From assembly GCF_033971325.1 (NCBI RefSeq), contig NZ_CP117180.1, forward strand, positions 564,041 through 628,040: a DNA stretch of 64,000 nucleotides, in the 5' to 3' direction. Shown here one piece after another: positions 37,943-46,751 of the stretch. The number at the start of each line of letters is the position of its first letter. Within the stretch, counting starts at the first letter, position 1. A program made the translations under genes and the position numbers. Source of the DNA: Hydrogenobacter sp. T-2. Lineage in GTDB: Bacteria > Aquificota > Aquificia > Aquificales > Aquificaceae. The notes under the pieces are model-generated. The model saw nothing but the letters and a program-made list of their open reading frames with translations, ran no database searches and was not told the origin of the DNA.

Positions 37943-38032
37943 TCTCCGAAAATATTGACATTTATACCTAATAATGGTAATTTATTGCTTGAATTGTTTC
38001 ACACACAAACTCACAAACAAAAGCTATAATAT

Positions 38033-38046
38033 CCCTATGTATAGGG
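38033..38046. repeat. inverted repeat spanning the tnpB start codon
   Basis: CCCTAT-GT-ATAGGG is perfect and covers the ATG at 38037. The decayed copy (CCCTACGTATAGGG) has lost the ATG but keeps the CCCTA/TAGGG stem, with the change in the loop. It could be a left-end hairpin recognised by a transposase, or a translation-limiting hairpin. Confidence 0.55.
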
Positions 38047-39518
38047 CTATTGAAGTCTCTTGCCCTACCACAAAGAGAAAAAGCACCCTTATAGCTCATG
38101 TCCTAAAGCTATACAGAAAAACCGCTGAAATAATAGCAAAATTCCAGTGGTCTTTATTCTTTAAGACTGGCTCCTTTAACAGAAAAGCCAACATAAAACA
38201 CTTAAACTGCCCACTTTCAGAAAGGTTCAAGTCCACTATCCAATACCATGTGGTAGTCCCTACACTGGAAAGTTTTATCGCCAATGTCCAAGAAAGGTTC
38301 AAAGAGATAGTCCTTAGCTCTACTCTTCCTGAAAAGACAAAAAGAGTTTTGCTATACATAAACTCCAGAGAGGAATGGCTTATTCCAAAAAGTGAGAAAG
38401 CCCTGTGGATAGACAAAGACAAAAACAAACATGAGTATGAGATGGTCAAGGAAGAAAGACTGCTTGCTAAGAAGATATTCAAGCATATTCTCAAAAGCTG
38501 GAAAAAGCCAAGTTTTAGAGGTATCTCTATGCTTTTAGACAGCAAGTGTGCCTTGCTGGAAAGACCAAAGAGAGCAAAAGCCTTTGACCTCTGGATAAGG
38601 CTGTCAACTCATGAAAAAAGAAAGCCTATATATCTGCCTGTGAAACTTCATGAGTATTTTGAGGAAAGAGGTGGAAAGCTAACAAGCATGGTTCAGATAG
38701 CAGAGGATGGCAAACTAAGGCTTGTGAAGGAGATAGAGAGGAAGGAGATAGCTTTCAGTGGAGAGGTAGCCCTTGACTTTGGCATGGAGTGTTTTCTTGT
38801 TTCAGACAGAGGAGACCTCTTTGGCAGGAAGTTTTACAGCAAGGTCAGGGAGTATGCGGATAAGATAGACAGAATTCAAAGAGAGATACAAAGGAGAGGG
38901 AAAAAGCCAACAGAGAGCAGAAGGTATTTAAGACTTCAACACAGGCTAAGTGAGTATGTGAAGAATGAGGTAAGGAGGGTAATAAACAGGGTTATAGAGC
39001 TATACAGACCACGAAGGCTTGTGCTTGAGAACCTAAGAGGATTTCTGCAAAGGGTAATAAACAACTTCCCAAAATCAATAAAGCGAGTGCTTATAAGGTT
39101 TGGGCTTGGGGAGATAAGGAGGAAGTTAAAGGAGATAAGCGAGGAATATGGCATAGAGGTGGTGTATGTAAATCCTGCCTATAGTTCGCAGGCATGTAGT
39201 AATTGTGGGTATGTAGACAAAGAAAATAGGAAGGCAAGGAGTGAGTTTGAGTGTAAGCTATGCAATAGAAAACTCCATGCGGATGTGAATGCAAGCAGGA
39301 ATCTGCTTAGCCGTGCTAAGTGGAGCTTGCATTTACGTCGTATGGAGCAAGCCCTTATCAAGCAGGTAGAGGAGTTTATGGCTCGCCTGTTTGATGAGCG
39401 GTTTAAGTGCCTCTGGAGTAAGGCACTGGGATTGATTGAGAGAAATCCATACTTTCAGTCAGTCCCTAAACCCGAGGTGTGGATAAATGTCCCTAAAAGG
39501 GATATTTGTCTATGCTAA
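38037..39518 (+). CDS. tnpB: RNA-guided endonuclease TnpB
   Basis: A 493-residue TnpB with all catalytic parts visible: RuvC D247 in VALDFGMECF, E331 in LVLENLRGF, a zinc finger C387-x2-C390...C406-x2-C409, and D416 in HADVNASRNLL. It should cut DNA matching a guide taken from beside the element. The protein is longer than common TnpBs (~400 aa), with a ~75-residue tail after the last RuvC motif. The start is the ATG at 38037 (MYRAIEV); it lies within the perfect inverted repeat CCCTATgtATAGGG, and a TATAAT (38025-38030) sits just upstream. Confidence 0.88.
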   Translation: MYRAIEVSCPTTKRKSTLIAHVLKLYRKTAEIIAKFQWSLFFKTGSFNRKANIKHLNCPLSERFKSTIQYHVVVPTLESFIANVQERFKEIVLSSTLPEKTKRVLLYINSREEWLIPKSEKALWIDKDKNKHEYEMVKEERLLAKKIFKHILKSWKKPSFRGISMLLDSKCALLERPKRAKAFDLWIRLSTHEKRKPIYLPVKLHEYFEERGGKLTSMVQIAEDGKLRLVKEIERKEIAFSGEVALDFGMECFLVSDRGDLFGRKFYSKVREYADKIDRIQREIQRRGKKPTESRRYLRLQHRLSEYVKNEVRRVINRVIELYRPRRLVLENLRGFLQRVINNFPKSIKRVLIRFGLGEIRRKLKEISEEYGIEVVYVNPAYSSQACSNCGYVDKENRKARSEFECKLCNRKLHADVNASRNLLSRAKWSLHLRRMEQALIKQVEEFMARLFDERFKCLWSKALGLIERNPYFQSVPKPEVWINVPKRDICLC

Positions 39519-41243: not shown

Positions 41244-42260
41244 CTAACTAACATAAACCCTTAGCCCTTCTCCCTCCTCTACTTTTCCTATGACCCACAC
41301 CCTTAAGCCCAAGTTCTCCGCTTCCTTCTTAAATGTTTCTTCCTTATCCTCTGGAAATGTAAAAAGCAAACCCCCTGAGGTTACAGGATCTGTAAGCAGT
41401 AAAATCTGCCACCATTCAACCCCTTCGTTTATAGTCTTGTCCTTTACAAAATTGTAGTTATCAAGAGCACCTTTTGGGTATATCTTCTGCTTTATTAGAG
41501 ACACAGACTCTTCGTATATGGGAACCTTAGAAAAGTCTATGGCGAGCCTTACCTTGGACTTTGTCGCTATGTTCATGGAATGACCCAAGAGACCAAAACC
41601 CGTTACATCAGTGCAGGCACTTGCCTCTACAGCCTTTGCAAGCTCAGAAGCCTTTTCGTTTAGCATAAGCATATATCCTATGGCATCGCCTATATCCCTC
41701 TCTCTAATTTTTCCTTCTTTTATCCCCTTCGTAAGCACACCCACACCCACGGGTTTTGTAAGGGCTATAAGGTCTCCGGGCTTAGCTCCTTCTTGGGTGA
41801 AGTATCTTCCCTTCTCGCATACACCCATAACCGCAAGACCAAACTTTGGCTCTTTGTCGTCAATGGTATGTCCACCCAGGAGGGCAGTTCTTGCCTCTCT
41901 CAGCTTATCTGCACAACCCCTCATAACTTCCTTAAGAACATCTATCTCAAGGTCGCAGTTGTTAAAACCTACTATGGCTAAGGCATTCAATGGCTTGCAC
42001 CCCATAGCATAAACATCGCTCAAGGAGTTAGCGGAGGATATGGCACCCCAGAGGTATGGGTCGTTAAGTATAGGAGTTATGAAATCCACTGTATGGACAA
42101 AAACCTGCCCACCGTAAGCGTAGACTCCCGCATCATCACCCACGCCCAAGAGGGTCCGTTCATCTGTGTAGAGGTCTATACCCTTTATCAACTTCTCAAG
42201 GTCCGCCGGACCCAACTTGCTCGCTCAACCAGAAGCCCTAACAAGTTTCAAAAGCTCCAT
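41244..42260 (-). CDS. selD: selenide, water dikinase (SelD) with an in-frame UGA read as selenocysteine
   Basis: SelD makes selenophosphate from selenide and ATP. Reading the minus strand from the ATG at 42260 gives MELLKLVRASG-U-ASKLGPADLEK: the UGA (42227-42225) falls at the catalytic Cys/Sec position, with Lys three residues later, the same spacing as Cys17-Lys20 of E. coli SelD. Downstream motifs fit: VGDDAGVY, VHTVDFITP, the DVYAMG block, LLGGHTIDD and TDVTGFGLLGH. A hairpin (42200-42212) follows the UGA at SECIS distance. Length with Sec is 338 residues. A call from the TTG at 42215 would lose the active site. A TATGAT box 8 nt before the ATG suggests a leaderless mRNA. Confidence 0.9.
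42200..42212 (-). promoter_or_regulatory. candidate bacterial SECIS hairpin in selD
   Basis: On the mRNA strand GGUCC-GGC-GGACC forms a perfect 5-bp stem with a 3-nt G-starting loop. The stem starts 12 nt and the loop 17 nt after the UGA, within the range of bacterial SECIS elements, which bind SelB to insert selenocysteine. Confidence 0.6.
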
Positions 42261-45192: not shown

Positions 45193-45840
45193 ATGAATTT
45201 AGGAGTTCTTGTATCAGGGCGTGGTTCTAACCTTCAGGCTATCATTGATGCTATTGAGGCTGGAAAATTGAATGACAGTATATCTATGGTTATATCTGAC
45301 AAGGAAGGTGTTAGAGCCGTAGATAGATGTCTAAAGCATGGTATTCCATACAGAGTTATAAAGCGAAAGGACTTTCGTAGTAAAGAAGAGTTTGAGAAGG
45401 CTCTCGTAGAGGCTCTAAAGGAAGCGGAAGTAGACTTGGTTGTTCTTGCAGGCTTTATGCGTATCCTTTCTGCCACCTTTCTTGGTCATTTTCCCATGAA
45501 GGTAATAAACATACATCCCTCTCTTATACCCGCTTTCCAAGGAATGCATGCCCAAAGGCAGGCTTTGGATTACGGTGTGAAGATAACTGGTTGCACTGTT
45601 CATTTTGTTACAGAAGAGTTAGATAATGGTCCAGTTATAGCTCAGGCGTGCGTGCCAGTTTTTCCAGAAGACACAGAAGAGAGCCTGTCTGAACGGATAC
45701 TCCACCATGAGCATAGGATACTGCCACAGGTAATAAGATGGATATCAGAGGGAAGGGTTAGGGTTGAGGGCAGAAGGGTGGTGGTGGAAGGGGCAAGGTA
45801 TGGAACTTTACCCTTTAACCCTGAGCTTGAAGACTTTTGA
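45193..45840 (+). CDS. purN: phosphoribosylglycinamide formyltransferase
   Basis: A 215-residue folate-dependent enzyme of purine synthesis. It has [17 protein letters not shown], the catalytic [16 protein letters not shown] with Asn and His, and [18 protein letters not shown] with the Asp. No SD; a TAGAAT box (45179-45184) ends 8 nt before the ATG. It is apart from purC (46739), so the pur genes are scattered. Confidence 0.94.
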
Positions 45841-45846
45841 TATAAT
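45838..45846 (+). promoter_or_regulatory. extended -10 promoter sharing the purN stop codon
   Basis: TGATATAAT: the TGA is the purN stop, and TG-n-TATAAT is an extended -10 element. It should drive the PA2779-like gene about 30 bp downstream, which has its own AAGGAGG. Confidence 0.55.
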
Positions 45847-45875
45847 CTTAGGAAAACTGACAAGGAGGTGGAAAC

Positions 45876-46268
45876 ATGTTAAGTCTTTTTAGAAGACGCC
45901 TGCTTGTGCTTGGAGTGGCTGGTTGTTTTTTTGCCTTCAATTCGTCTCCAGCCCTTGCTGGACTTGTGGGTTCAAAGCCTGCCTCTGAAACTCTGACTAT
46001 GAAGAGAGAGGAAGATATAGCTAAAATTCAAAGAGCCCTTGAAAGCAAACAGCTTCAGGAAAAACTAAAAGCTTACGGTCTCACAAAGGAGGAGGTGGAG
46101 AAAAAGCTCTCTGAGCTAAATGACGAGCAGATACACATGTTGGCAAAGGCTTCCGATAGGGTTCTTGCCGGTGGGGATGGTGTGGGTCTCGCCATAGGTA
46201 TACTCATAGTGGCTATTCTTCTCGTTATACTCCTCAAACTTCTAAACAAGGAGATAATTATAAGGTGA
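45876..46268 (+). CDS. PA2779-family small membrane protein
   Basis: A 130-residue protein with a signal peptide (LVLGVAGCFFAFNSSPALA), a helical, charged middle and one C-terminal membrane segment (VGLAIGILIVAILLVILLKLL). This layout, and the following C39-like protease gene, match the PA2779/PA2778 pair described from Pseudomonas; the function of that pair is unsettled. The middle carries KREEDIAKIQRALESKQLQE, typical of the family. Confidence 0.72.
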   Translation: MLSLFRRRLLVLGVAGCFFAFNSSPALAGLVGSKPASETLTMKREEDIAKIQRALESKQLQEKLKAYGLTKEEVEKKLSELNDEQIHMLAKASDRVLAGGDGVGLAIGILIVAILLVILLKLLNKEIIIR

Positions 46269-46271
46269 GGA

Positions 46272-46751
46272 ATGTTCCTTCTTTTACTTCTCTTCCCTCT
46301 TTTGCTATACTCCAAGAATCTTGATGTTCCTTTCGTTAAACAGCAGGACCAATTCTGCGGTCCTGCCTCTTTAAGTGCTGTGCTTTCCTACTATGGTATA
46401 GAGGTTTCTCAAGAAGATATAGGAAAAGAGGTTTACAACCCTAAGCTGAAAGGTGCACTCATAACGGACCTTGAGAATTATGCAAAGAAGAAGGGTTTCA
46501 GAACCGAGACAAGGGTCTTAAGGCTTGAAGAAATAAAAAGCTATATAGATAGAGGCATACCATCCATACTGCTTGTAGACCTTGGTAGATTGTGGGTAAG
46601 CGTGCCTCATTATGTGGTAGTGGTAGGATACGATGGAGATGTTTTTTATCTCCACACAGGCTATGAAGATAGAAAACCCATTAAAGCCAGAGAGCTTGAT
46701 CGAATCTGGTCAAAGATGGGAAGGGTTGCTTTGATAGTTTATCCACCTTGA
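46272..46751 (+). CDS. C39-like cysteine peptidase, PA2778-family
   Basis: A 159-residue papain-fold protein with a short signal peptide. The catalytic Cys is in QDQFCGPASL, the His in VPHYVVVVGYD, and an Asp follows in YDGDVFYLH. It likely cleaves or processes a small periplasmic partner; the preceding PA2779-like protein is the obvious candidate, but this is inference. It overlaps the convergent purC by 13 bp. Confidence 0.8.
   Translation: MFLLLLLFPLLLYSKNLDVPFVKQQDQFCGPASLSAVLSYYGIEVSQEDIGKEVYNPKLKGALITDLENYAKKKGFRTETRVLRLEEIKSYIDRGIPSILLVDLGRLWVSVPHYVVVVGYDGDVFYLHTGYEDRKPIKARELDRIWSKMGRVALIVYPP

Follow-up and report, generated by a model that had tools for sequence, protein, structure and literature searches.

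Selenophosphate synthetase (SelD; selenide, water dikinase) is itself a selenoprotein in many organisms. The selenocysteine-containing enzymes of bacteria, archaea and animals, known as Sec-SelD or SPS2, carry selenocysteine (Sec) as the catalytic residue, with a conserved lysine after it, and they make the donor for their own selenocysteine. According to the literature, archaeal and eukaryotic genes of this kind rely on another type of SECIS element, located in the 3´ UTR, whereas the bacterial element generally lies within the coding region. A 2006 survey described FdhA and SelD as the most widespread selenoproteins and assigned to Aquificae two selenoproteins in two families (PMC1794560); a 2026 review ranks SelD as the second most expansive prokaryotic selenoprotein family. 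The selenide, water dikinase of Aquifex aeolicus was already listed as a UGA-encoded selenoprotein in a 2005 survey, as was its formate dehydrogenase (PMC1242214). Structures 2ZAU, 2ZOD and 2YYE all represent A. aeolicus SelD (PMC7595633), and among the reports cited by PMC7595633 is one on the structure of the N-terminally truncated protein. Misannotation of selenoprotein genes is stated to be a general problem (PMC4561486).

The window analyzed here, a stretch of 64,000 nucleotides, belongs to the closed 1.69-Mb genome of Hydrogenobacter sp. T-2. On its minus strand (42260 to 41244) lies a selD gene that, judging from comparison with its relatives, almost certainly encodes a SelD with catalytic selenocysteine. 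Such an enzyme is not new, being known from A. aeolicus, where its structure has been solved, and from many other organisms. The A. aeolicus protein is an orthologue from the same bacterial family, about 59% identical over a full-length alignment. PDB entries 2yye and 2zod match the window SelD with E value of 1e-132 and align from residue 1, with Cys where the window protein has Sec; entry 2zau, the same protein, starts at the position aligned to window residue 25. Locus L030 and its genome G001 were taken as A. aeolicus because the protein agrees with 2yye over the 35 N-terminal residues that were compared and because the genome consists of two contigs. This locus contains UGA at the same codon (ATGGTTGAACTATTAAAG...TGA) and the same GGUCC-type hairpin behind it, the two apices being one or two bases apart (GGUCCGGGUGACC against GGUCCGGCGGACC in the window gene). 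The genomes differ in selU, the gene for tRNA 2-selenouridine synthase, which is present in Hydrogenobacter sp. T-2 and gave no match in G001.

Reading frame and catalytic codon of selD

With TGA translated as Sec, selD encodes 338 residues. It starts with ATG at 42258..42260, continues through eleven codons (MELLKLVRASG) to the in-frame UGA at 42225..42227 (codon 12), and ends with TAG at 41246-41244. The UGA is followed by Ala-Ser-Lys-Leu-Gly-Pro, which places the catalytic lysine (AAG, codon 15, 42216..42218) three residues after Sec, as expected for this enzyme; all 31 UGA genes that were aligned encode this lysine. Against the TIGR00476 equivalog model, the readthrough protein scores 315.4 bits over residues 4-305 (curated cut-off 125), and it contains the Pfam domains AIRS and AIRS_C. 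The original prediction placed the ATG at 42260, the TGA at 42227-42225 and the lysine three residues further on, and all of these positions proved exact on the minus strand.

Without readthrough, mechanical ORF calling starts at TTG 42215 (codon 16, 42213..42215) and yields a 323-aa product that has no catalytic residue and scores 299 bits against TIGR00476. This truncated frame had been anticipated as well, together with the warning that automatic annotation would adopt it, and the gene indeed must be annotated through the UGA. One might argue that the N-truncated, Sec-less protein is the real product and that the UGA merely closes a short upstream frame, the more so as the A. aeolicus protein was crystallized in truncated form too (2zau, from the position aligned to residue 25). 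However, the eleven codons between ATG and UGA are kept as protein across relatives and homologues with Cys read straight through the site. The TTG, on the other hand, is not conserved, as codon 16 is CTG, GTA, GTG, TTG or TTA in different genes, and a protein initiated there would lack both the catalytic Sec/Cys and the lysine. We thus consider initiation at the TTG very improbable.

The original prediction held that only Cys or Sec could occupy the catalytic position, and the relatives examined agree with it. A selD interrupted by a single in-frame TGA occurs in 35 of 112 genomes from the order, all 35 belonging to the same family. At codon level, 37 selD genes of the family were read; 34 have TGA, each at the same codon, and the remaining three have TGT (Cys). 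Of 80 loci taken from named genomes, a set that may overlap with the family genomes, 46 have TGC, 19 TGA and 15 TGT as the catalytic codon, and no other codon occurs. Recurrence of a single TGA in selD of 35 genomes, at the same codon in all 34 genes read, means that the UGA is neither a chance event nor a sequencing error. Although TGA is one base away from TGC and TGT, so that a misread or disabled Cys codon in a Cys-type gene or pseudogene might be imagined, the identical TGA is found in independent assemblies, the rest of the frame is intact, as are selA, selB and selC, and within the family the hairpin described below accompanies TGA only. These comparative data refute a sequencing error or a disabled Cys codon for this lineage, and we give that reading practically no credence.

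Elsewhere in the window, a 514-aa ORF at 37974-39518 combines a Cas12f1-like/TnpB domain (PF07282) with a weak match to OrfB_IS605. Situated between housekeeping genes, it is TnpB-like and belongs to an element of the IS605 type.

The hairpin downstream of UGA

The predicted bacterial SECIS hairpin occupies 42200..42212 on the minus strand and consists of GGTCC (42212-42208), the loop GGC (42207-42205) and GGACC (42204-42200). Its stem begins 12 nt after the UGA, so that the apical loop begins at nucleotide +18; sequence and spacing are precisely those originally noted (GGUCC-GGC-GGACC, 12 nt). Published criteria for bacterial SECIS elements ask for an upper stem of 4-16 bp, an apical loop of 3-9 nt with G in its first two positions, a distance of 16-37 nt from the UGA and minimum free energy (MFE) of at most -7.5 kcal/mol (PMC13188914). 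In the window hairpin the stem measures 5 bp (6 bp when G-U is included), the loop is GGC and is separated from the UGA by 17 nt, and MFE is -9.2 kcal/mol (centroid -7.9 kcal/mol), all within these limits. Shuffled sequences of the same base composition fold with similar energy (z -0.46), and the structural case for the hairpin is therefore made by its conservation.

This conservation is considerable. In all 34 UGA genes the TGA is followed at the same place by a hairpin of the form GGUC-CGNNN-GACC, which is missing from the three Cys-SelD genes of the family. We measured the constraint in 31 full-length UGA genes, i.e., the window gene and 30 others that are 58-96% identical to it. Codons 17 (GGT), 18 (CCG) and 20 (GAC) are the same in all 31. 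Their third bases show 0 bits of variation, whereas 40 other four-fold codons at invariant positions average 1.73 bits, and each of the nine other invariant Asp codons mixes GAC with GAT. The constraint on these sites thus exceeds what the protein code demands and lies at the RNA level. Stem bases are nearly invariant across the UGA genes, leaving no compensatory changes to count. A genome-wide search for UGA followed by 12 nt and GGTC-5 nt-GACC returned three matches (control 0), one of them selD; the other two we judged to be chance. Taken together, the agreement with published criteria and the constraint on synonymous sites are strong evidence that the hairpin acts as a functional bacterial SECIS element.

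Genes for selenocysteine decoding in the genome and the family

If selD is decoded with Sec, the necessary machinery should be encoded elsewhere in the genome, as the original prediction implied, and selA, selB and selC were all found there. Both selA (C1:1382650-1383726, minus strand; TIGR00474, 588 bits) and the adjoining selB (C1:1383939-1385624, minus strand; TIGR00475, 428 bits) are present, the latter encoding 570 aa that match nearly the whole model. The selC gene for tRNA-Sec with anticodon TCA is located at C1:1409086-1409180, also on the minus strand, and was recognized by RF01852 (69.9 bits) and by ARAGORN. A formate dehydrogenase gene with UGA, suggested as an example of further selenoproteins to look for, exists too: in fdhA an in-frame UGA falls within LARETQARIUHAPTV and is followed, at a similar distance, by a triloop hairpin of its own, GGCCA-GUU-UGGCC. 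A targeted look for a third selenoprotein found none, as the HesB-like gene (PF01521), a member of a common selenoprotein family, has no in-frame stop in this genome. The selU gene lies outside the window (G000:C1:635922-636824; 341 bits).

That a near-cognate or suppressor tRNA places Cys or Trp at the UGA can be dismissed as scarcely believable, since no evidence for it was found in this genome, which has canonical tRNA-Sec, SelB and SelA, and the SECIS-type hairpin is conserved with the UGA and lacking from the family Cys genes, whose genomes are without SelB.

Across the family, selB scores above the cut-off in 30 of the 35 genomes with UGA-selD. Four of the exceptions (G015, G016, G021 and G027) are many-contig assemblies in which selA and selC are present, and the missing selB is therefore likely an assembly gap. 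The fifth, G057, is a closed genome with a broken selB: only residues 1-75 and 454-570 are left, in different frames, and about 380 residues are missing. No selA match was obtained in this genome and what is left of selU lies in an open frame of 50 aa, while selC and UGA-selD with its hairpin look intact (loci L137:5722-6290, i.e., G057:C1:433721-434289, L138, L026 and L054:3610-3709). This looks like a recent loss of Sec decoding in which selD has yet to decay. Because G057 retains both UGA and hairpin next to a broken selB, these two features by themselves do not prove decoding.

In the window, purN adjoins genes for a small protein of hydrophobic character and for a C39-like peptidase (45193-46751). 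The same arrangement occurs in G057 (L137) and is directly followed there by the selB remnant; the Hydrogenobacter sp. T-2 selB is located elsewhere.

The three Cys-SelD genes (L047, L048 and L049) come from genus g10 (G058, G060 and G061). They encode the same protein as the window gene, 51-56% identical over the aligned part, but with TGT in place of TGA and without the hairpin, and their genomes contain neither selA nor selB above cut-off. Like the window genome, they do possess selU, as expected if Cys-SelD serves selenouridine only; it seems that the enzyme has been kept in g10 for tRNA selenouridine alone. In the whole order, selU exceeds the cut-off in 37 of the 112 genomes. It is common in the family, although the 2006 survey had found no selenouridine trait in any of the Aquificae sequenced by then (PMC1794560).

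Proposed selenium flow and possible self-regulation

From these gene contents and motifs we infer the following course of events. SerRS and SelA would produce Sec-tRNA(Sec), which would be carried by SelB. Upon binding of SelB to the hairpin just past the UGA, Sec would be inserted at position 12 of SelD. Sec12 and Lys15 at the ATP site would then take part in formation of selenophosphate from selenide and ATP. The selenophosphate would supply SelA, for synthesis of SelD itself and of the Sec-containing formate dehydrogenase, and likewise SelU, leading to 2-selenouridine in tRNA.

Because SelD needs its own product, it is conceivable that UGA decoding in selD works as a selenium-dependent self-regulatory switch, even though we regard this as unlikely. 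At low selenium, the ribosome would stop at codon 12 or restart at TTG 42215, and the resulting SelD would be inactive or act differently. If such a switch existed, G057 with its broken selB and intact UGA-selD would offer a natural setting in which to see whether the truncated protein is retained for some use.

As to Sec decoding itself, the lineage carries it together with a selenouridine enzyme and a minimum of two selenoprotein genes, those for SelD and formate dehydrogenase. The family comparison adds that synonymous sites of the hairpin do not vary among the UGA genes examined and that the Cys genes of the family lack this structure; otherwise, the biology is as known for Aquifex aeolicus.
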